IMG/VR virus record: IMGVR_UViG_3300042924_004294
Coordinates: 1 to 63,025 of that record
Reading direction: 5' to 3' (one strand)
DNA length: 63,025 bases
DNA from: a virus
Part shown: positions 4,642-40,788 of the stretch, in pieces
Layout of the letters: every line of letters begins with the position of its first letter
How positions within the stretch are numbered: the stretch's first letter is position 1
The notes under the pieces: generated by a model
Database searches by the model: none
Seen by the model: only the letters and a program-made list of their open reading frames with translations
What the model was told of the DNA's origin: nothing
Program-made: the position numbers and the translations under genes

Positions 4642-6078
4642 ATGAGTAACAGAAAATCAGAATCGTTAGTAGAGGAGGCTTTATTACAAATGAAGACCAT
4701 CGAAGAGGCGATTAGTGAAAATGCAAAAGGAATACTTGCTTCAACCATGAAACAAGAAATCGGCGAATTAGTAAGGGAATCTATAATGGGTTCTAAAAAA
4801 TCCTTAAAAGAACAGGCACAAGGTGGTGAACAACCACAACCACAAGGTTCAGAAGAAGAAGGAGAAGAAGTAGAAGTATCAGGTGAAGAGGAAGTGGAAT
4901 CACTACCAGCACCAAGTACTGATAATGGTATGGAAGGAGCTCCTGAAGGCCCAACTGAAGAACTACCTCCACTTGATATGACAAAATCACCAATGTCCGA
5001 CGTTATGAAAGTTTTCAAAGCGATGGGAGATGAAGATGGTTTTATCATTCAAAAAGATGGTAATTATGTTCACTTGAAAGACGGTAAAGCAAATACCGAA
5101 TATCTAATCAGTATGGAAGTTGACGAACCTGAAATGCCAACAGAACAACCTGTCGAAAACATGGCTGAAAATACAACATATGAGTTGGTTTTTGAAGACG
5201 ATTCGATGGCGAATGAAATGGACTATAACGAAGACATGAACATGGATGAAATGTATATGGATGAAATGGACTATAACGAAGGTATGGGTCATATGAACAT
5301 GGATGAAATGTATATGGATGAAATGGACTATAACGAAGATATGGGTCATATGAACATGGATGAAATGTATATGGATGAAATGGACTATAACGAAGATATG
5401 GGCATGGATGAAGAAGTTTATGAAATCGACCAAGAATCACTTGAAAATGTTGTTGAAGCGTTTAAAGCGAAAGGTAAAATTGGAAAACTTAAAACCAATA
5501 TTTATCCTTCAAAATTAAAACACGGTGTTACTGAAACAGACGAAGATGAAATTTCAGACGGATGGATGGATGAAGAGGAAGATGATGACGTTGAAGCAAC
5601 TGAAGCCGCTAGAACTTATGGAAATGGTTCTAAAAAAGGTAGAGGTTTAAGAAAGGGAATCACTCCAAACAGAAATTTAACGTTTGAATCTCGTGAATTG
5701 GAATCTTTAAGAGAAAAAAATGAAGAGTATAGAAAAGCATTAGACTTTTTTAGAAATAAATTAAATGAAGTTGCAATTTTCAATTCTAATTTGGCTTACG
5801 CTACTAGATTGTTTACAGAACACTCAACAACAAAACAAGAAAAAATCAACATCTTAAGAAGATTTGACACTGTTGAATCTTTGAAAGAATCAAAATCACT
5901 TTACAGAACAATCAAAGAAGAAATTGGTGAATCACCAAACTCTATGATGAACGAATCTATTGCACAAAAAGTTGTTAAAACTCCAAGTAATGGTTCATCA
6001 TCAAACTTGATTGAATCTAAAGCTTACGAAAATCCTCAATTTATGAGAATGAAGGATTTAATGAACAAAATAAAATAA
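4642..6078 (+). CDS. 22: Prohead scaffold/core protein, T4 gp22-like
   Basis: Forms the internal core on which the capsid shell assembles, then is digested by the prohead protease. The C-terminal third (about residues 345-475) has the gp22-type pattern: a long helix, then VAIFNSNLAYATRLF, STTKQEKINILRRFD and SKSLYRTIKEE segments. The N-terminal half is extremely acidic, with EEGEEVEVSGEEE and Pro/Gly-rich parts, and contains a Met/Asp/Glu/Tyr tandem repeat (5218-5415). At 478 residues it is much longer than T4 gp22 (269). L/I-x-E sites occur early (LVE at 9-11). It is directly followed by the major capsid gene, as in T4. Confidence 0.85.
   Translation: MSNRKSESLVEEALLQMKTIEEAISENAKGILASTMKQEIGELVRESIMGSKKSLKEQAQGGEQPQPQGSEEEGEEVEVSGEEEVESLPAPSTDNGMEGAPEGPTEELPPLDMTKSPMSDVMKVFKAMGDEDGFIIQKDGNYVHLKDGKANTEYLISMEVDEPEMPTEQPVENMAENTTYELVFEDDSMANEMDYNEDMNMDEMYMDEMDYNEGMGHMNMDEMYMDEMDYNEDMGHMNMDEMYMDEMDYNEDMGMDEEVYEIDQESLENVVEAFKAKGKIGKLKTNIYPSKLKHGVTETDEDEISDGWMDEEEDDDVEATEAARTYGNGSKKGRGLRKGITPNRNLTFESRELESLREKNEEYRKALDFFRNKLNEVAIFNSNLAYATRLFTEHSTTKQEKINILRRFDTVESLKESKSLYRTIKEEIGESPNSMMNESIAQKVVKTPSNGSSSNLIESKAYENPQFMRMKDLMNKIK
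5218..5415 (+). repeat. 57-nt tandem repeat inside scaffold gene
   Basis: In-frame tandem repeat coding for a 19-residue acidic Met-rich unit starting MDYNED. Starts at 5218 (a 48-nt copy lacking three codons), 5266, 5323 and a partial copy at 5380. Copies are nearly identical at the DNA level, which suggests recent slippage or unequal recombination. Confidence 0.95.
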
Positions 6079-23910: not shown

Positions 23911-24647
23911 TTTTTAAAAATTGGTATAGTAGTCATTTTATGGGCGTTCATTTTATTGAATTTTTTATATATTTGAAGTACATCAATTTCTTTTTCGGTG
24001 AGGTCGCTCAAATTTCCATCAAAAGACATTGCCCATTCCAACTCTGAATAAGTTGCCCCAATTTGTTGTTCATCGGTTCTATCGTCGTCCCAAAGACCAT
24101 CGGTGGGCTCCGCTTGAATTATTTCTTCTATAATTCCTAAATTTGATGCTAATTCCCTTACTTCAGTTTTTGTTAAATCTGCTATTGGTGATATATCAAC
24201 TCCTCCGTCCCCATATTTAGTAAAAAAACCAATACCAAAATCCTCAACTTTGTTTCCTGTACCCACAACTATTCCATTATTTAATGATGATATGTGATAT
24301 AATGTAACCATACGTAATCTTGATTTTGAATTAGCTGAAGAAAGATTGTGATAAGAGTCAAATTTTTTCTCAAACATACTAAAAACATCAGACATATCAA
24401 TTTCTATTGAAATTACATTATTAAAATTACTTTTCAACCATTCAATATGTTTTTTTGCTAAATTTAGTTGAGATTCATTTTGAAATATTGGTATACTAAC
24501 CACAATTGTTTTTTTATTTGACATAGCACATAACGTAGAGGTCAAAGCCGAATCTATACCACCACTAACACCAACAATTAAACTACTTAAGTTTGTGTTG
24601 TCTAAATAGTTAGTAATCCAAGAAGATATTTTTTTTTCTAATTCCAT
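23907..24647 (-). CDS. nadE: NAD+ synthetase, ammonia-dependent
   Basis: 246 residues. Converts deamido-NAD to NAD with ATP and ammonia. PP-loop VSGGIDSAL near residues 27-35; then GTGNKVEDFGIGFFTKYGDGG, here read as GTGNKVEDFGIG and FFTKYGDGG, ISPIADLTKTEVRELA, and AEPTDGLWDDDRTDEQQIG, all NadE hallmarks. No glutaminase domain. It sits inside the glycan operon, overlapping its neighbours by 4 and 10 bp. Roles could be NAD supply for the many NAD(P)-dependent sugar enzymes beside it or countering host NAD depletion; both are inference. Confidence 0.9.
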   Translation of the reverse strand: MELEKKISSWITNYLDNTNLSSLIVGVSGGIDSALTSTLCAMSNKKTIVVSIPIFQNESQLNLAKKHIEWLKSNFNNVISIEIDMSDVFSMFEKKFDSYHNLSSANSKSRLRMVTLYHISSLNNGIVVGTGNKVEDFGIGFFTKYGDGGVDISPIADLTKTEVRELASNLGIIEEIIQAEPTDGLWDDDRTDEQQIGATYSELEWAMSFDGNLSDLTEKEIDVLQIYKKFNKMNAHKMTTIPIFKK

Positions 24648-25726
24648 TTTAAAAAGTTATATAATTTATTATTGTCATCAACCCCAACGTTAAACGACAT
24701 ACATTGTTTTTTTTTAATGTCTTGAATTTTTTTTACAAAGTTTATTTTATTTTGTTTATCGTCTAATAAAACCAAATTTGTATTACAGTAGTAAGTTGAT
24801 AAATCTATAGGTGATGTTGAAGTACTAATAAAGTTTTCAGAATTATCTATTACAGTCAAAAACAATTTGGTGTCAAAAAAAGAGACCATATCTAAATAAT
24901 GGACATATTCACTTTCAATTTTAGGAAAAGAACAAAGGTCATTTATCACCAAAATTTCTAGTTTATTATTTATATGGTAATTTATCACATCGTTATAAAA
25001 TGAATGGTCAACAAATCCATATCCTTTTTTACCGTCAGTTGCGTTTTTACCAACTAAAAAATCATTTATATTGTTGGATGAATAATCTCTACTTTTCCAT
25101 GAGTTCTTAACAAAAAAGGTATTGTATTTTTTTATGTTTAAGTGAGATTTTTTATTAAATGTCGGATTCCATGTTTCAATCTCCCACCCTAAAGTATTTG
25201 TTGAATACCATTTATTCATACCTAAATTCCATTCCCCGTCTTTACCGGAACCATAACAGTACCCTGGTTTAAGAATAAATAGGTCATTTTCCCACGCCTT
25301 CTCTTTTCCTATTGGGAAAATTATGTTTCTAAATTCATATTTGCTTATTACGGACCAATATTGGTCTTCATCAAAATTTCTAACAGTAAACCAAAAGGCA
25401 ACTCCCCTATCTTTAAACTTTAAAAAATTATTTAATAACAGGTCAGTCTCATTATTATCCTTGTATGCTTTAGAGGTGTCTATAAAATTTTCTAAAACAA
25501 TAAGATAATCAACATGAGGTTCATAAAAAACTTCGTGACCTGGAAAACATAGACCTATTTTTTTTCCTTTAGTTTGATTTATGAATGGTAAAAACAATTC
25601 ATTAAATAAAATTGGATAAAACCCATATTCTAACCAAACATAATTTATTAAGTTAAGTTCTTTGGTTTGTAAAGATGTTAGATATGTATCTAACTCAGAT
25701 AAACTTTTTATATTTTTTATTATCAT
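24638..25726 (-). CDS. Unknown protein of glycan cluster (362 aa)
   Basis: No family recognised. Mixed alpha/beta with many aromatic residues; segments like KIGLCFPGHEVFYEP, DYLIVLENF and LEILVINDLCSFPKIESEY suggest a Rossmann-like fold. The start is placed at 25726, where the ATG overlaps the upstream stop by 4 bases (ATGA); an upstream ATG at 25774 would overlap the neighbour by 52 bp. It lies between nadE and methyltransferase genes in the operon and may be a transferase. Confidence 0.5.
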   Translation of the reverse strand: MIIKNIKSLSELDTYLTSLQTKELNLINYVWLEYGFYPILFNELFLPFINQTKGKKIGLCFPGHEVFYEPHVDYLIVLENFIDTSKAYKDNNETDLLLNNFLKFKDRGVAFWFTVRNFDEDQYWSVISKYEFRNIIFPIGKEKAWENDLFILKPGYCYGSGKDGEWNLGMNKWYSTNTLGWEIETWNPTFNKKSHLNIKKYNTFFVKNSWKSRDYSSNNINDFLVGKNATDGKKGYGFVDHSFYNDVINYHINNKLEILVINDLCSFPKIESEYVHYLDMVSFFDTKLFLTVIDNSENFISTSTSPIDLSTYYCNTNLVLLDDKQNKINFVKKIQDIKKKQCMSFNVGVDDNNKLYNFLKWN

Positions 25727-26448
25727 AAATTTTTTATATAATCGTAATCTATGTCCAACATTGGTGTATCGCAACCATTAGCCCAAGGAGAATACCAAGG
25801 TATATCTTCGGATTTAAGTACAGGTAATGTGTTTAAATCCTTTCTAATAAAAATCATATTTAATCTGTTCATCCCAACTAAATCATAATTTTTATATTCA
25901 CCTAACAAATAAAGTGCTGGTGGGGTCGCACCATAATAATTTATATTATTTGTGTGCACATAGTTTTTGTCATATCTAACGATTGAACAATTATTGTGGT
26001 TAGCGTTATACTCCATTATGACTACTTTAGGGGAAAAATCCTTTAATGAATGCCATACCCACCAATCAATCCCGTCAATGTCTATTGATAAAAAATCAAA
26101 ATCTTTAGGACAATTATTTTTATTTAAAATATAATCTAAACTATTATCCTTTTCTGTCGATAGCAATGTATTAATACAGGTAATCCCCATATTTTGGAAG
26201 TTTTCAACCGCCTGATTATGTTTTTCCTCGTTTGACTCAATACATATTCCTTTAAACCCAAAGTCCCTAATTAGTCTATATGTGTTACTTAAATAAACAC
26301 CGTCCCAAGACCCGACATCAACAAAAAACCCTTTGTTTATGCTATTTACAGATTCTAACGCTTCTCTAATCATACCATCCTCATAGTATTGAGAATATAT
26401 TTTTTCAGAATATTTTTTTAATCCAAAATTTGTTTTTTCGTCTATCAT
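25723..26448 (-). CDS. FkbM-like methyltransferase
   Basis: 241 residues. SAM-binding FFVDVGSWDGVYLSNTYRL, then GFKGICIESNEEKHNQA, and DFDFLSIDIDGIDWWVW, where the FkbM-type 'IDxEG' is replaced by IDIDG. Start at 26448 leaves one base after the upstream stop; an ATG at 26487 would overlap by 38 bp. Likely O-methylates a sugar in the phage-made glycan. Confidence 0.7.
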   Translation of the reverse strand: MIDEKTNFGLKKYSEKIYSQYYEDGMIREALESVNSINKGFFVDVGSWDGVYLSNTYRLIRDFGFKGICIESNEEKHNQAVENFQNMGITCINTLLSTEKDNSLDYILNKNNCPKDFDFLSIDIDGIDWWVWHSLKDFSPKVVIMEYNANHNNCSIVRYDKNYVHTNNINYYGATPPALYLLGEYKNYDLVGMNRLNMIFIRKDLNTLPVLKSEDIPWYSPWANGCDTPMLDIDYDYIKNL

Positions 26449-26449
26449 A

Positions 26450-27112
26450 TTACTCGGTTGTTGAATAAAAACTACCTCTCTCTTCAAAAAAAATAGTTTC
26501 GTTTTTTATGTTATTTTTTTTAATTAATAAGTTTGGTATAATAAAAATTTTACCAACCCCACCTATATTTCCATTTCTTATTGGTAAATTTCTTTGAGTT
26601 TTGTTCAAAAAGTAATATTGAAATCCATCATAACAATTTTCAATATTATTTTTAATGTAATCATAGTTACATACATTGTCATTATATGTATCAAATTGAA
26701 AATCTCTATTTGGGACATAAAAGTCGTCAATAACAATTATCGCCCTATTAAAATAATTTTTTGATATTGCGTCAATTTCATCTTTTAATGGCCAATAATT
26801 GTCCCAGTGAGCATCTAAATAAAATAAAATTACTTCTTTATCTTTACCAATTTCTAAAAGGTTGTCATTTAAAAAATTTGTAGATGAGTTTAAAATAAGA
26901 TTTAAATTATTTTTTTCGATACACGTATCTTTTGTTTTTGTGTAATAATTTTCACTTATTTCGATACCGTAAACATCTTTAAAATTTTCACAGAAAAATT
27001 TAGTGGTTTCTCCAATATAAGTACCTGTTTCTATAACCGTTTCTACATTGAATAATTTTTTTAATTTTAAAATTTCATTTTCAACTTGGGGGTCTGAATT
27101 AAATGCTGACAT
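26450..27112 (-). CDS. Class I SAM-dependent methyltransferase-like protein
   Basis: 220 residues. An ETGTYIGETTKFFCENF loop near residue 32 fits SAM binding; YGIEISENYY gives the acidic residue after the second strand; VILFYLDAHWDNYWPLKDEID resembles methyltransferases of sugar and cephalosporin hydroxylase-like families. It adjoins UDP-glucose dehydrogenase and a second methyltransferase. The substrate cannot be told. Confidence 0.6.
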   Translation of the reverse strand: MSAFNSDPQVENEILKLKKLFNVETVIETGTYIGETTKFFCENFKDVYGIEISENYYTKTKDTCIEKNNLNLILNSSTNFLNDNLLEIGKDKEVILFYLDAHWDNYWPLKDEIDAISKNYFNRAIIVIDDFYVPNRDFQFDTYNDNVCNYDYIKNNIENCYDGFQYYFLNKTQRNLPIRNGNIGGVGKIFIIPNLLIKKNNIKNETIFFEERGSFYSTTE

Positions 27113-32746: not shown

Positions 32747-33474
32747 TATTTTAAACTTTTTAATTTTTTTATTGATTCAATCAAAACATCAACATCTTTT
32801 TCACAATATTTTGCAATTTCATCAAGTCTATTCTGATTCCAATATGCCTGATGAACCATACCTCCATTTATTTCACCATCTTTTGGTGTTGGAATATCTA
32901 AACAAGAACACATTAAATCTAAAGAACCAATTGAACTATACGAACCATATTGCCAAATTTCTTTGGTATCAATCGCTTTCACTTCCCACGGTTTAGTGTC
33001 GTATGACGGGAGTATTTTTGATGGCATAATATTGTTAATAATCATACGTTTTGCCAACATAGGGATGTCAAAGTTTTTTAAATTATGACCACACAAATAA
33101 AAATCTAATTTGTGACAACGGTCTAATAAATTTCTAACTTCCAACAATAAATCCTCTTCGCTGTCATTTTTAAAAGTTTGTTTTTTTACTTCACCGTTTT
33201 CTAAAACAAATGCCATTGATACACAAACAATTTTAGCAAACTCTGGAACAAGTGCCGCTCTTGAAGAATAAACATCATTCATTTTTTGAAGTTCTTCTTC
33301 AAGACCATTTGTCTCAACGTCATCTTCAGGAAATCGTTTTAAAAACCAATCAAAGTATTTAACAAATTGTTCTGCAATTTTAGGATGATTTTCTTGACAA
33401 GTCCGCCAATCCTTACATATACCAACAGTTTCAATGTCGATAAATAAAATTTTGTTAATAGGTATGTTTATCAT
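32746..33474 (-). CDS. DnaQ-like 3'-5' exonuclease
   Basis: 242 residues. Exo I FIDIETVG, Exo II CGHNLKNFDIPML and Exo III YCEKDVDVL give the DEDD pattern of the polymerase-exonuclease superfamily. It resembles stand-alone predicted exonucleases related to PolB domains. It is possibly a proofreading, repair or degradation nuclease; the DNA polymerase at 41251 has its own exonuclease domain. It overlaps the glycosyltransferase upstream by 4 bp. Confidence 0.85.
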   Translation of the reverse strand: MINIPINKILFIDIETVGICKDWRTCQENHPKIAEQFVKYFDWFLKRFPEDDVETNGLEEELQKMNDVYSSRAALVPEFAKIVCVSMAFVLENGEVKKQTFKNDSEEDLLLEVRNLLDRCHKLDFYLCGHNLKNFDIPMLAKRMIINNIMPSKILPSYDTKPWEVKAIDTKEIWQYGSYSSIGSLDLMCSCLDIPTPKDGEINGGMVHQAYWNQNRLDEIAKYCEKDVDVLIESIKKLKSLK

Positions 33475-34652
33475 TTTATTAAAGATTTATAAAGTTCTGC
33501 TCTATTTTTTGTAACCACATTTAAATCATATGTGTCTTTTACCGTTTCATATAATCGTTGACCCAAGTCATAAGCAAAGTTAGGATTATCAATTAATTTT
33601 TTCATGTTTTTAGCCCAATCACTATGATTTTTTACTTCATCAACTAAAAGTGCGTTTCCGTCAGAGAATTGACCATTTTTTAATGCGTGTTTTAAATCAA
33701 TAGTGTAGGGACCAACATTTGAAGCAATAATTGCTTTTTTGTAAAAACCAGCTTCAATAACTTTTAATTGCGACTTAACTCGGTTAAAGATATGATTCAC
33801 AATCGGTGATAATGAAACATCAAATAATCTATAATTTGAAGCGTAACTTGTAACAGGTTTTGTCCAAACTCGATTGTAAAAAGGTTCAGACTCCATAATA
33901 TATTCAGAATCCTCAAATTTTTTCAGGTATTCAAGATGTTGGGGAGAAACTAACTTATAATTATCAGTAAAAATTTCTTCATAACGTGCCCATACGGTTT
34001 CTTCTGGCCTTATCGGTCTTTGTTTTTGTTCACCTGTTTCTTTATTAATTTCAGTAACACTTCCTCTTGTATCAAAACCACATAGATACAATGAAAATTT
34101 GTCATGACTATCTTTTAATTTATTTGTTACACCGTTTAATAATTTTAAATCATGTAAGTGAGAAGAACCACCCAACCATCCAAAACGAAGTTTATCTGAC
34201 GGTTTTGTTTCATATTTAAATTGAGGTTCTTTTGGATTAATTGCGTTTGGAAGAACGTATACGTTTTTATTAATTTTAGATATTTCTGATGCAAATAAAG
34301 ATGTTGTTGTTGTGACGTGTGCAGCAACTTTTAGATTTGCAACTATCTTTTCATTTATTTTGTTCTGTATGATTAGTTGATGGATTGGGTGTTCTTTAGT
34401 TGGCAACCAATAGTCGTCCAAATCCATAATTGTAATTACACCAATAGAATTTAATGTTTGAATTAACTTATTCGCTTGGTCAAAATCTTGACCAATTGAC
34501 CTATGGAAATGGACAATGTCATATTGTTTCCAATAGTTATAATCATTAATTTTTGGGTCGTAATCTATATCTACGTGAAATTCATCTGAGTGATTATTTT
34601 GTAACATTACGTGGGGGTCTACAGACCTAAATTTTCCTTTAAATTCAGCCAA
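33471..34652 (-). CDS. GT-B glycosyltransferase lacking an ATG start
   Basis: About 393 residues from a TTG at 34652. FRSVDPHVMLQ, YDIVHFHRSIGQDF, VITIMDLDDYW and VYVLPNAINPKEPQF are typical of phage GT4-like enzymes, and the late FDVSLSPIV and KVIEAGFYKKAII complete the donor site. No ATG or GTG precedes the TTG in frame; the frame stays open 25 codons further, through the long hairpin at 34649-34713, up to a stop at 34728. So the gene is either TTG-started, 5'-altered by insertion of the homing endonuclease gene, or expressed by an unusual route. Function inferred; 5' end uncertain. Confidence 0.75.
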   Translation of the reverse strand: MAEFKGKFRSVDPHVMLQNNHSDEFHVDIDYDPKINDYNYWKQYDIVHFHRSIGQDFDQANKLIQTLNSIGVITIMDLDDYWLPTKEHPIHQLIIQNKINEKIVANLKVAAHVTTTTSLFASEISKINKNVYVLPNAINPKEPQFKYETKPSDKLRFGWLGGSSHLHDLKLLNGVTNKLKDSHDKFSLYLCGFDTRGSVTEINKETGEQKQRPIRPEETVWARYEEIFTDNYKLVSPQHLEYLKKFEDSEYIMESEPFYNRVWTKPVTSYASNYRLFDVSLSPIVNHIFNRVKSQLKVIEAGFYKKAIIASNVGPYTIDLKHALKNGQFSDGNALLVDEVKNHSDWAKNMKKLIDNPNFAYDLGQRLYETVKDTYDLNVVTKNRAELYKSLIK

Positions 34653-34713
34653 CTCCAGTACGGTCGCTAGGGACGCATAGAACCCTAATTTTTTTGCGAA
34701 CGTCTGGAGTTGG
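34649..34713 (-). other. Long compound hairpin at homing endonuclease/glycosyltransferase junction
   Basis: Perfect 10-bp inverted repeat (34649-34658 with 34704-34713, CCAACTCCAG/CTGGAGTTGG). Inside it, 34660-34667 pairs with 34696-34703 with one mismatch, and TAGGG/CCCTA pairs 34668-34672 with 34683-34687. It contains the HEG stop codon and the TTG of the next gene and is much richer in G+C than the surroundings. Confidence 0.8.
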
Positions 34714-35632
34714 ATTGCTCTCTTGATTCATGTTTTTTTATTAAGTTATTTATTATTTGTGGGTTTGATTTCAATTCAGACTCCCACACCACTTCAAAAA
34801 AATAACCATTACTTTTTATTAAGTCAATTTTATTATTATCATATTCCCATAATTCTTGTGCGGTTTTTTTCTTTACTTGGTGATAATAACTTGCGTCGTA
34901 TTTTTTGGGGTTACAATGCCAATAATCTCCATTATATTCAATAATTAAATTTAATTTAGGTATGTATATGTCACATATTTTTGTGTCAATTTTTAATGAA
35001 TGTTTTACTTGGTAACCCATATTTTTTATTTCTTTTAATATTTCTTTTTCTTTTTTTGACCTATTAATTGATTTTATTTTTCCCATCCTTCTAGTGTTTT
35101 TCATAGTTTCTGAAAACATTTTTCTAACATGTTCCATTTCACCATTATTCCACTTTTGTTTTAAATTATCGTGAGCTCTTTTTTTATTGTCAGGATTTGA
35201 CATTCCATTTTCAAAACCTTTTGCCTTCCCCTTTCTACTTTTTGAAATTTTATTTTTTGTTTTTTCATCGTGTTTTTTTCCGTAAAACGGATTTCCTTTA
35301 CCTATTTGTTTTTTTAATGAACAATTTTTACAATCACAATTTTTGTCAATTTTAACAAAGTGATTTCTACAGGCAATAATTTTATTTTTTGATTTAGTTT
35401 GAATTATTTCCTTACATGTTGGGCAAATTCTTTCAACAACATAATACTCGTTGATTAATTTATAATTCAAACTTTTACATCTGTCTTTTTTTCTTATTAC
35501 ATCGTGTTTTTTTAAAATACTGAGTATTTTTGGTTTGGAGACTTTAAATTCTGTTGCAACAATTGAACTACTTTTACCATTAAGATATTGTTTAACTACT
35601 TCTTCTTCGTCTAATTGAATTTTTTTTCCCAT
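34685..35632 (-). CDS. Free-standing homing endonuclease (NUMOD3 + VSR-like)
   Basis: 315 residues. N-terminal HTH-like segment (VVKQYLNGKSSSIVATEFKVS), Cys pairs (CPTC, CDCKNC) that may bind zinc, a NUMOD3-type NPFYGKKHDEKTKNKISKSRKGK (split as NPFYGKKHDEKT and NKISKSRKGK) at 114-136, and a C-terminal VSR/EDxHD nuclease: CDIYIPKLNLIIEYNGDYWH at about 220-239 with Asp, Glu, Asp and His. Such genes are mobile and insert near conserved phage genes. It has its own TATTTAT motif and a hairpin over its stop. It heads the glycan operon. Confidence 0.85.
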   Translation of the reverse strand: MGKKIQLDEEEVVKQYLNGKSSSIVATEFKVSKPKILSILKKHDVIRKKDRCKSLNYKLINEYYVVERICPTCKEIIQTKSKNKIIACRNHFVKIDKNCDCKNCSLKKQIGKGNPFYGKKHDEKTKNKISKSRKGKAKGFENGMSNPDNKKRAHDNLKQKWNNGEMEHVRKMFSETMKNTRRMGKIKSINRSKKEKEILKEIKNMGYQVKHSLKIDTKICDIYIPKLNLIIEYNGDYWHCNPKKYDASYYHQVKKKTAQELWEYDNNKIDLIKSNGYFFEVVWESELKSNPQIINNLIKKHESREQSNSRRSQKN

Positions 35633-35645: not shown

Positions 35646-35670
35646 GTCCCGACCTATCAAAAGGTAATAA

Positions 35671-35700
35671 AATAAAAAATCCACCTAAAATAGGTGGATT
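35671..35700 (-). terminator. Minus-strand terminator after 35724
   Basis: 9-bp stem AATCCACCT/AGGTGGATT (35678-35686 with 35692-35700), loop AAAAT, T-run on the minus strand. Ends the small-protein cluster before the homing endonuclease gene. Confidence 0.85.
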
Positions 35701-35723: not shown

Positions 35724-36359
35724 TTATTTTACCTTTTGAATTTTTGTAACTCTACCTAAAAATATGTGTTTACCAACCTTAAATTGTATTGATTCGTTTG
35801 CATCTTCAGATGATTCACTAATAACTCCAGCGTCTTGTAATTCTTCTCTAATAACATCTCTTACAACATCTCTTACCACATCTCTAATCATTGTTTTCAT
35901 TTCATTCATGTTGAATTGTGATTGTGTGTTTTGAGTTGTTGTTTTGGTGTTTGATTTTGGTAATGATTCGGATGGTTGTGAGTTTTTATTTTCCATCTTC
36001 ATTAGTCTTTGAGCCCCTTCGATTATATCATCAGATATAGATGCACTTGACATAGTATTAGGTTGTACTATAGGTCTTTCAATCATTAATTTTTTAATTT
36101 CATCTGGTAATTTTGAATTTAAAATTTTTGATTCTTCAATCGGTTTTGTTGGGTCATAATTTGATTTTTGACTTGTCGATGGGCTTTCAGACAAAAATTC
36201 TTGAGGTAAGTTATACGTTGCTTGAGGAGTATTAAAACTCTCTAACATTGGTGCTGCATTAATATTTTGTGGAATTTCACCTCTTTTTATTGTGCTCTGT
36301 CTGTCCATAATTTTTTTGGACACGGCCAATCTTTGCATTAATTCTTCTGCTGATGACAT
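35724..36359 (-). CDS. Unknown hydrophilic protein with repeated VVRD helix (211 aa)
   Basis: No family recognised. Long disordered-looking Ser/Asn/Pro-rich N-terminus; near residue 160 a VVRDVVRDVIREEL stretch likely forms a short amphipathic or coiled helix; the C-terminus FKVGKHIFLGRVTKIQKVK is a small beta unit. A pattern of this kind is common for head core or assembly proteins, but context gives no proof. Follows the WYL-like gene by 13 nt and is ended by a strong terminator. Confidence 0.6.
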   Translation of the reverse strand: MSSAEELMQRLAVSKKIMDRQSTIKRGEIPQNINAAPMLESFNTPQATYNLPQEFLSESPSTSQKSNYDPTKPIEESKILNSKLPDEIKKLMIERPIVQPNTMSSASISDDIIEGAQRLMKMENKNSQPSESLPKSNTKTTTQNTQSQFNMNEMKTMIRDVVRDVVRDVIREELQDAGVISESSEDANESIQFKVGKHIFLGRVTKIQKVK

Positions 36360-38274: not shown

Positions 38275-40788
38275 ATGCCAAGTCAAAGTATTAATTCATA
38301 TTTTACACCAAAATATTCCCAAAAATTAAATTTTGCGGACTATTTCGATTTTACACTTGTCGGAGATGAAAAAGACTACGATGAAGAGGTGGTATTTTCT
38401 AACGAACTAATTGCGTATGATGACGGAAATAGACTTCCAATTTTATTTGATTTAGGGGATTCCAACACTTGTCCTCAAATACCAATGTCGTTTGACACCT
38501 TTTATAGTGGTGCTACTTTAGTTAGTAAAAATTATTACAACCCTAATAATGTTGATTTAGATTGTATCTCGGCATTTACGGGAACTTGTGATGTTGGATT
38601 AGTTGGAACCGATAATGGTTTATTTACTTCGTTGACAGGTCAAACACTTTATTACACTATGGGGGTTAGAAATGATTATAAGTTTAACCCAATATACTAC
38701 GACAGAAGAATGAAAATGCATATGGTTACGGGGTATACCAATCCACCAAATGTTGTTTTTTCAGGTAGACCAAAACAATCTATGTATAATATTGTATCTA
38801 AAAGTGACCCAACAATTGGTTACTATCAAGAATTATATGGTGGTTTCTATCAAGGATTTTATAAACTTTTTGGTTATGATTATGAAGTTTTTCCTGAGCG
38901 TGTAAATAAAGGTTGGACCATGGAGACGGTTATAAAACCAAGAAACTTAGATGAATATATTATCAATACATCAACTGAAGAGTATCTGAATACAAAATAC
39001 CCGAGTAATGCTGGTACTTTTTTCTATTTTGGTACAAGAGCCGAAAACAAATTTTATCATTTTGCAAGTGGAAGTCCTGAATCTGATTCAGGATACACAA
39101 GGGCAACCACAGGTTTAACATCATTACAAAGTTGTAAATGTTCTGATACTGGTGTAACAAACGCTAACTGTGTCACACTTTACCCACAAAGTGCAACAAC
39201 CGCAGTTCACCAAATAGGTTGTGGATGTGGAGCATGTACAGAACAAATACCAGTTCCACCATTAGACCCTAAATTTGATGTGTTGTCAAACGCATTATCA
39301 ATTAGATTTAGTGGTTGTCCTTTAAATCCAAGTTTATGTATCAAATACATTAAAATAACAGGAGATTGTGTCACAACAGGTGTTTGTGAAACTACTGGTG
39401 TTACTTTTCAAACAGGGTACACCATAACCGAAGTCTGTACACCACCAATATATGATGTATGTGATTATGTTTGTGGTACAATAACTGAAGACAGATGGGT
39501 AATGGTTACGGCAGTTTTTGAAAGATATACAACAATAGAAGAGTGTGATTTATTAAATCTTGGCGGTTTAGGGGATATAAGAGAAGTGACTTATCAATCT
39601 ATTTTAAACGGGACTGCATATAATTTGATTATGCCACCTGAAACACATTCTGGTGACACAAAAGAAAATAAAGTTTATAGAATTGTTTTTGACCATAAAT
39701 GGTTTGATGATACTTGGTATAGATTAGGAAGACTCAAATTATATATTAACGGTTACTTATTCACCATAATTGAAAACTTTGAAGAAATAATTCCAAGGGA
39801 ATTAAATTGCGAAAAAGAAAAACAAATCGGCGTACCGTTTAACATTTCTTGGGGTGGAGGTAGTCAAGGATTACATGACAATTTAATTTTTTCCGCCGAT
39901 ACGTTATTAACAGGACCATATATACAAGACCCTGAATTATTTCCAAATGAAATATTGTCAGCAACAACTTTAAGTGGTTTAACCACAAATATACTTGTTG
40001 AACAAAATTTTGGGGGTTCATTTATGGGGGGTATATCGCAGTTTAGAATGTATACTGAACCTTTTGCAAGTCCTCAAGTGCAACACAATTTTAGAATTTT
40101 AAAAGATAAATTTGATTTGTTTGATTATTGGTGTCCTGATTGTTTGACTCCTGCACCGACACCTACACCAACTCCGACACCTACCCCTACTCCAACTCCG
40201 ACACCTACCCCAACACCTACCCCTACTCCGACACCCGCAAATATACTTGCAGTGGCAATACCGTGTTTAGGCGAATCTGAAGCGGAAGTTATTTCAATAC
40301 CTCCACAATATCAAAATCTTGACAACTACTATGTTGTTGGCGGAACAAATGGTCAATGTTATATCGTTACAAGTCCATCTGCAGGACCTCAAACCGTGAC
40401 ATGGAACGGTCAAGTTTATGGTCAAAACGGAGATTGCTCGTTATGTCCTCCTGTACCGACACCAGTACCTTGTTTAACAACACACCCGTACTTATCTTCA
40501 TATTTAAGTTTTTCTACCAATCAATATGGTAATTTTTCAAATAGTTATTCGTTGGCTTGTAGTTCGTTGTTGTGTTTATCTGCTGGAACATGTAGTACCA
40601 ATGGAGCAATTGAATCTATGTACATTGATACTCCACAAATTCAAGTTGGTACGGTGTTCTATGGTGGACCTACAACATGTAATTACTATGGTATGACAGG
40701 ATTTTATGTTGCACAAAACGGTGCAAACTACGTATTATTAAGTATTTCGAATGGTGTTGTTACTCAAGTATTAAATAATTGTTCATAA
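38275..40788 (+). CDS. Candidate tail adhesin with lectin-like domain and Pro-Thr linker
   Basis: 837 residues. The central part (about 210-600) has GWTMETVIKPRNL and RLKLYINGYLFTIIENFEE plus FNISWGGGSQGL, typical of concanavalin/LamG-like beta-sandwich domains that bind glycans. Many Cys in the middle (CKCSD, CGCGACTE) suggest disulfides or metal sites. A (Pro-Thr)n linker (40150-40236) joins a C-terminal Cys-rich Gly/Ser/Tyr domain. Layout fits a virion surface or receptor-binding protein. It has its own TATTTAT motif and is next to a small beta protein and DNA polymerase, not to the main tail genes. Confidence 0.65.
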   Translation: MPSQSINSYFTPKYSQKLNFADYFDFTLVGDEKDYDEEVVFSNELIAYDDGNRLPILFDLGDSNTCPQIPMSFDTFYSGATLVSKNYYNPNNVDLDCISAFTGTCDVGLVGTDNGLFTSLTGQTLYYTMGVRNDYKFNPIYYDRRMKMHMVTGYTNPPNVVFSGRPKQSMYNIVSKSDPTIGYYQELYGGFYQGFYKLFGYDYEVFPERVNKGWTMETVIKPRNLDEYIINTSTEEYLNTKYPSNAGTFFYFGTRAENKFYHFASGSPESDSGYTRATTGLTSLQSCKCSDTGVTNANCVTLYPQSATTAVHQIGCGCGACTEQIPVPPLDPKFDVLSNALSIRFSGCPLNPSLCIKYIKITGDCVTTGVCETTGVTFQTGYTITEVCTPPIYDVCDYVCGTITEDRWVMVTAVFERYTTIEECDLLNLGGLGDIREVTYQSILNGTAYNLIMPPETHSGDTKENKVYRIVFDHKWFDDTWYRLGRLKLYINGYLFTIIENFEEIIPRELNCEKEKQIGVPFNISWGGGSQGLHDNLIFSADTLLTGPYIQDPELFPNEILSATTLSGLTTNILVEQNFGGSFMGGISQFRMYTEPFASPQVQHNFRILKDKFDLFDYWCPDCLTPAPTPTPTPTPTPTPTPTPTPTPTPTPTPANILAVAIPCLGESEAEVISIPPQYQNLDNYYVVGGTNGQCYIVTSPSAGPQTVTWNGQVYGQNGDCSLCPPVPTPVPCLTTHPYLSSYLSFSTNQYGNFSNSYSLACSSLLCLSAGTCSTNGAIESMYIDTPQIQVGTVFYGGPTTCNYYGMTGFYVAQNGANYVLLSISNGVVTQVLNNCS
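40150..40236 (+). repeat. Pro-Thr dipeptide linker repeat
   Basis: About 14 Pro-Thr units in frame within the adhesin gene; codons vary (CCT, CCA, CCC, CCG with ACA, ACT, ACC), so the repeat is kept by selection on protein rather than by recent slippage. Confidence 0.9.

Follow-up and report, generated by a model that had tools for sequence, protein, structure and literature searches.

A mobile homing endonuclease cassette with a putative stop-hop module in a phage glycosyltransferase gene

How might a phage express a glycosyltransferase (GT) gene that adjoins a homing endonuclease gene (HEG) and appears to lack a conventional start codon? The question is raised by a 63,025-nt stretch of DNA, IMG/VR virus record IMGVR_UViG_3300042924_004294 (hereafter the window), in which the features of this locus lie on the minus strand. 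The original prediction held that a TTG within a long hairpin was the only usable start of the GT, that insertion of the mobile gene might have altered the 5′ end, and that the hairpin might couple or block translation or be an intron end or a bypass element. We consider it highly likely that the locus is a mobile HEG coupled to a programmed translational bypassing cassette, comparable to T4 mobA and gene 60 but using very short stop-hops, a reading in which the hop itself and its efficiency are what we infer.

Reading frames and hairpin at the joint

The HEG (34685-35632) encodes 315 amino acids, with an N-terminal HTH-like part, NUMOD3 motifs, and a C-terminal Vsr/DUF559-like nuclease domain. 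It matches Pfam NUMOD3 (E 6e-6), Pfam MTES_1575 (E 3e-4), and the PHROG 3339 homing endonuclease family (E 1e-12); the match to NCBIfam vsr (E 2e-4) falls under that model's curated cut-off. Its TAG stop (34687-34685) and the TTG (34652-34650) both lie inside a 65-nt hairpin (34649-34713), to which we ascribe a putative recoding role. The window contains two copies of CCAACTCCAG, one on the plus strand (34649-34658) and one on the minus strand (34704-34713), against a chance expectation of 0.05 occurrences; they pair without mismatch over 10 bp to form the outer stem of the hairpin (34713-34704 with 34658-34649). The 131 nt of the minus strand that include the hairpin fold at −35.8 kcal/mol (z = −4.2, with none of 200 shuffles equally good), and the hairpin ranks 9th of 6295 among 80-nt minus-strand windows, all better ones lying in a repeat-coding region at 1536-1685. 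Upstream of the TTG, the GT frame runs through 25 open codons, none of which is ATG or GTG. The perfect outer stem, the nested HEG stop, and the open frame devoid of ATG are all present as originally described. The strongest predicted fold in the window belongs to a G+C-rich stretch coding for Pro/Gly/Ala repeats (1511-1807); further repeat-coding regions, with MDEMYMDEMDYNEDM and (PT)n, lie at 5100-5440 and 38275-40788.

The missing N-terminus of the GT is found in another frame. ORF1 (34648-34731) runs from an ATG at 34731 for 28 codons (MNQESNPTPDVRKKIRVLCVPSDRTGVG) and overlaps the 3′ end of the HEG; it is homologous to MSKIKVLVLPSDRTGVG of uninterrupted GTs and bears an N-terminal extension of ~11 amino acids. 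It ends with GGC (Gly; 34648-34650), here termed the take-off codon, inside which the 3′ arm of the hairpin ends, and TGA follows directly (34645-34647). A 10-nt gap that includes the stop (TGAATTTAAA, 34638-34647) separates the take-off codon from a landing codon, GGA (Gly; 34635-34637), after which AAA TTT AGG continues the GT. ORF2, the rest of the gene (33471-34634; 387 codons plus stop; phrog_7162), is assigned a GT-B fold from the AlphaFold2 model and PDB matches of an intact relative (L003). When the pieces are joined at GGC/GGA, the resulting GVG|KFRS is identical to the native sequence in relatives that lack the endonuclease. The TTG (34650-34652) is out of frame with ORF1, where it straddles a Val and a Gly codon, and is almost certainly not the start; the N-terminus is encoded from the ATG at 34731. 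An alternative genetic code in the window was considered and rejected (gene stops are TAA 35, TGA 8, TAG 5).

Uninterrupted relatives, in which the original start was to be sought, begin MSKIKVLVLPSDRTGVGKFRSVDPHV, initiate at ATG (MSKIKVLV...), and have no hairpin. One of these, L003, which is ~96-97% identical to the window at the DNA level in shared parts, has an ATG start and no endonuclease; in a BLASTN comparison identity breaks at 35670 and returns exactly at 34637, in the landing codon. The two also share a terminator-like hairpin (35680-35699) of the upstream gene (35724-36359), and the cassette occupies the interval between that hairpin and the landing codon. The suggestion that the mobile gene changed the 5′ end of the GT is borne out by these comparisons. 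HEG-less relatives sharing both TTG and hairpin were not found among the relatives; those that retain the hairpin keep the stop-hop architecture rather than the TTG.

Homing endonucleases often reside in introns, and the two frames might be joined at the RNA level, with the hairpin at the end of an element that splices itself out or is excised in some other way. However, no Rfam intron match was obtained in the window, ORF1, which contains the ATG and encodes the GT N-terminus, is located 3′ of the HEG and only 2-10 nt from ORF2, and alleles without the HEG keep the same short gap. An intron is hardly credible under these circumstances, and of the roles first proposed for the hairpin it is the bypass element that fits a gap of just 10 nt.

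A family of split alleles

Related loci were collected from IMG/VR by tBLASTn-guided searching, followed by systematic parsing and two DNA-pattern scans; a split allele was defined by a stop exactly between GV(G/S) and (K/Y/F)(F/Y)RS. Environmental phage contigs yielded 42 distinct split alleles, as against ~155 distinct uninterrupted ones. INPHARED contained no cultured relative with a close GT or full-length HEG, and none was found in the genome contigs searched. The stop follows the last codon of ORF1 immediately in 42 of 42 alleles (TGA 24, TAA 18), a position that was itself a search criterion; a broader search turned up only one locus without such a stop. That locus (L194:1300-1360), which was left out of the count, encodes GVG followed by GCT TAA; a 41-nt gap, which contains a separate hairpin (CCCCCAC...GTGGGGG), leads to GGT AAA, and the locus represents a longer bypass or else a gene that is broken.

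Gap lengths among the 42 alleles are 2, 3, 4, 5, 6, 8, 9, and 10 nt, which covers all three frame relations. The forms are AGT-TG-AGC, where the landing codon overlaps the stop (2 nt); GGY-TRA-GGN (3 nt); AGC-TGAA-AGC, AGC-TGAT-AGC, and GGC-TGAA-GGT (4 nt); AGC-TGACA-AGC and AGC-TGAAA-AGT (5 nt); AGC-TGACTA-AGC (6 nt); GGT-TAACTAAA-GGT (8 nt); GGT-TAACAAAAC-GGT (9 nt); and GGC-TGAATTTAAA-GGA in the window (10 nt). Take-off and landing codons belong to the same box, GGY/GGN or AGY/AGY, in 41 of 42 alleles, and when matched codons are joined the native GVG|KFRS or GVS|YFRS is regained. The third bases differ in some alleles, the window included (GGC/GGA), and 7 of the 41 matched alleles land on GGA. 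The sole unmatched allele (L264:4960-4975, AGT-TAA-GGC) could reflect readthrough, sequencing error, or decay. A degenerate version of the 3-nt Gly pattern gave 33 matches in 2.9 million viral contigs, every one of them in this GT gene, with open frames to either side up to the limits of the stretch.

Since most alleles have an in-frame GGN-TRA-GGN, stop-codon readthrough, which would yield G-X-G-KFRS, or ordinary frameshifting might join the ORFs without a hop. Readthrough, however, accounts for gaps of 3, 6, or 9 nt only; it cannot join those of 2, 4, 5, 8, or 10 nt (the window, L002, L076, L079, L315, L259, L317, L321, L337, L362, and L430), and 8-10 nt is farther than a simple one- or two-base frameshift reaches. 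The gap classes that readthrough could and could not join have the same hairpin and matched codons, and we regard this explanation as quite unlikely.

Nor does the gene look like a casualty of the insertion. HEG insertions can damage genes, and if ORF1 were a stray peptide, ORF2 could be a pseudogene or encode a truncated protein begun at an internal start or at a TTG such as the window provides. Yet the GT in bypass alleles is under strong purifying selection, also where the HEG has decayed or gone: dN/dS for close bypass pairs is 0.044 (L409/L420), 0.048 (L001/L002, HEG decayed), 0.075 (L076/L079, no HEG), and 0.107 (L010/L025). Codon differences in ORF1 are likewise mostly synonymous (7.0 per pair, against 4.4 nonsynonymous). 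No TTG is available where the stop directly precedes the landing codon, and ATG is the start codon of 46 of the 48 main genes in the window. The AlphaFold2 model of L003 (pLDDT 81) is that of a GT-B enzyme close to GlgM/BshA/PimA; the joint is predicted to fall in the loop after beta-strand 1 of that fold, so that ORF2 by itself would lack beta 1. A second intact GT copy was found neither in the window record nor in ten other contigs (up to 158 kb). A broken or truncated GT is very unlikely on this evidence.

A long hairpin is also common to the split alleles. Minimum free energies (MFE) of the 80 nt before the take-off codon are −28.8 ± 2.4 kcal/mol in 32 distinct bypass alleles and −10.1 ± 3.7 kcal/mol in 155 uninterrupted ones, with no overlap, and a layered fold, comprising an outer stem that ends at the take-off codon and middle and apical stems, is common to 42 of 42. 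It is the structure of the hairpin rather than its sequence that is kept, because stem registers vary by lineage; for the same reason RNAalifold applied to all 40 sequences together returned no common structure, whereas subsets in a common register do show one. In a register-consistent subset covariation is 0.293 versus 0.146 in shuffled sequences (0 of 500 as high), and when the partner strand is slid along, 30-41% of positions pair, compared with 90% in the true register. At one stem pair all four Watson-Crick types occur, the wobble position in the Val codon that precedes the take-off codon pairing as C-G, A-U, U-A, or G-C. The 5′ arm lies in the N-terminal extension of ~10 residues that uninterrupted GTs lack.

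RNA hairpins often regulate phage HEGs (PMC2988022), and this one could serve the HEG or transcription, as a translational control or a terminator, rather than the GT. Against this, the hairpin is retained in alleles without the HEG (L076, L079, L315, L326, L337, L421, and L430) and absent from uninterrupted alleles even where an HEG lies upstream, and no U-tract follows it. In L357 (2910-3015), where the extension and an HEG remnant persist, the stop and gap have been lost and with them the hairpin, its 3′ arm being unpaired (MFE −12.6); this apparent reversion is a natural control. A function confined to the HEG or to transcription is highly improbable.

Mobility of the cassette

HEG-family sequence lies upstream of 35 of the 42 bypass alleles and 9 of 150 uninterrupted ones, a contrast inflated by those loci that came from searches with the HEG as query. 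About 25 of the 35 HEGs are near-complete, the others being frameshifted or fragments, and 7 bypass alleles have none. On the GT tree the bypass and uninterrupted states interleave, with 34 parsimony changes over 170 tips, as for a mobile insert. Near-identical GT pairs differ by presence or absence of the cassette at a fixed site; in L158 and L159, for example, the 97% upstream identity stops ~1030 nt short of the take-off codon in one member and 113 nt short of the junction in its partner.

Many HEG-bearing loci carry, ~1010-1025 nt before take-off, a left-end motif, CCTTTTGATNNNACNGG, that mimics the part of the GT coding sequence immediately preceding the joint. In the window this motif (CCTTTTGATAGGTCGGG, 35648-35664) resembles the GT coding site CCN-TCN-GAT-NNN-ACN-GG, and from this resemblance we propose that the homing site may have its left half here. 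We dropped the idea of a GT relic that is still translated; some copies contain an in-frame stop, and the motif is therefore conserved as DNA.

The nine uninterrupted alleles with HEG-family sequence upstream but no stop-hop count against the explanation we favor. In seven loci (L004, L073, L204, L247, L251, L257, and L266) an HEG of the same family lies directly upstream of an uninterrupted GT, its 3′ end adjoining or overlapping the ATG of the GT; this is a form of the element with no need of bypass.

The same GT gene has been entered by another kind of element. L268 (4960-7275) and L255 (4992-7298) also contain an in-frame, intein-like insert of ~380 amino acids, in which a LAGLIDADG domain was detected in these two, the ones tested; L259, L262, L321, L326, and L430 have an in-frame insert of ~380 amino acids as judged by length. 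Two different homing elements thus occupy one GT gene.

A proposed hop and its precedents

We propose that a homing endonuclease inserted into a phage GT gene and would have brought with it a rebuilt 5′ end, parted from the rest of the GT by a stop codon and a few nucleotides. Ribosomes very probably hop over that stop to make an intact GT. In the window, a ribosome that has translated 28 codons would stand on GGC while TGA occupies the A site; the peptidyl-tRNA-Gly would then release GGC, slide over the 10-nt gap, and re-pair at GGA, and translation would resume at AAA. The product would be exactly GVG-KFRS if the Gly-tRNA moved from GGC to GGA. The upstream hairpin could refold behind the ribosome and drive or bias the forward move, a position that agrees, by analogy, with the "motor" role of the gene 60 5′ stem-loop (PMC5009743, PMC11194080).

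The amino-acid match at the joint could stem from homology of the rebuilt 5′ end, and the feature that speaks for matching at the tRNA level is the codon bias of the few Ser-type alleles. These use AGY at take-off in 7 of 7 cases and at landing in 6 of 6, against TCN 20 : AGY 9 in uninterrupted Ser alleles, and L337 has AGC/AGT where its near-identical uninterrupted sister L336 has TCG. This preference suggests matching by tRNA and not just by amino acid.

The stop and gap would probably break up the rejoined homing site and so shield the rebuilt gene from the endonuclease that the cassette itself encodes; we think they may exist because the rebuilt 5′ end would otherwise recreate that site beside its right half. 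More broadly, we think it likely, with less assurance than we attach to bypassing in the window, that these alleles represent a widespread mobile cassette in which a Vsr-like HEG travels with a replacement gene start and a portable stop-hop module, forming the first natural stop-hop family, with Gly and Ser codons, gaps of 2-10 nt, and the stop and gap as an immunity device.

The closest precedent is T4 gene 60 and its endonuclease gene, which is mobA and not, as first written, mobE, a gene located between nrdA and nrdB (PMC2988022; PMC3014915). Both systems have (i) matched Gly take-off and landing codons, with a stop directly 3′ of take-off; (ii) a 5′ stem-loop behind the ribosome and a site in the 5′ part of the ORF; and (iii) a gene interrupted by an HEG, with relatives that lack the HEG also lacking the gap (PMC5009743, PMC11194080, PMC3014915). 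In this type of bypassing two ORFs encode one protein across an untranslated gap and translation can resume in any frame; the 42 split alleles, set against uninterrupted GTs, have this arrangement. The cassette would work like gene 60/mobA but lacks one of its features, the A-site stem-loop: gaps of 2-10 nt, compared with 50 in gene 60, are too short to hold a take-off stem-loop, the odd locus L194 excepted. Nor was a T4-like nascent-peptide motif, KKYK, identified in the alleles; ORF1, only 26-29 codons long, has a basic, partly conserved extension (NGREK, PDVRRK, PVGRK). The GT alleles differ further in that the 3′ arm of the hairpin reaches the take-off codon, Ser (AGY) variants exist, the gene encodes a GT and not a topoisomerase, there are dozens of alleles instead of one, and the nuclease domain is Vsr-like where that of MobA is HNH.

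Other systems offer partial parallels. Synthetic E. coli stop hops, in which matched codons flank a stop, follow the same logic as the 3-nt-gap alleles, but the latter are natural, conserved, and equipped with a dedicated upstream hairpin. The byp elements of Magnusiomyces capitatus mitochondria are likewise short inserts skipped in translation; unlike the GT alleles they are mitochondrial and apparently independent of mRNA context, and the codon match is not always kept (PMC5009743). Free-standing HEGs also interrupt conserved phage genes, as mobE of Aeh1 does nrdA (PMC2988022), whereas here one continuous polypeptide would be regained through a rebuilt 5′ end and a translational joint.

A 2010 review considered gene 60 bypassing apparently unique and asked whether other cases exist in T4-related phages (PMC3014915); a 2016 review knew of no natural in-frame stop hops and stated that counterparts over shorter distances had long been presumed (PMC5009743). 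The literature we searched, which covers few subscription papers, yielded no description of an HEG/stop-hop family of this kind. Efficient phage ribosome bypassing had rested on one gene, T4 60; to it may now be added at least 42 natural alleles that vary in gap, codon, and hairpin and are accompanied by uninterrupted sister controls. With this set, what the hairpin, the codon match, and the length of the gap each contribute can be examined comparatively and with simple reporters, and the findings favor the view that homing endonucleases give rise to bypassing.

A practical consequence is that gene callers split or mis-start such GT genes. Elsewhere in the window, the mechanical ORF list gives no start other than TTG for two neighboring overlapping minus-strand ORFs (24638-25774 and 25723-26487), which possibly involve frameshifts or other recoding.
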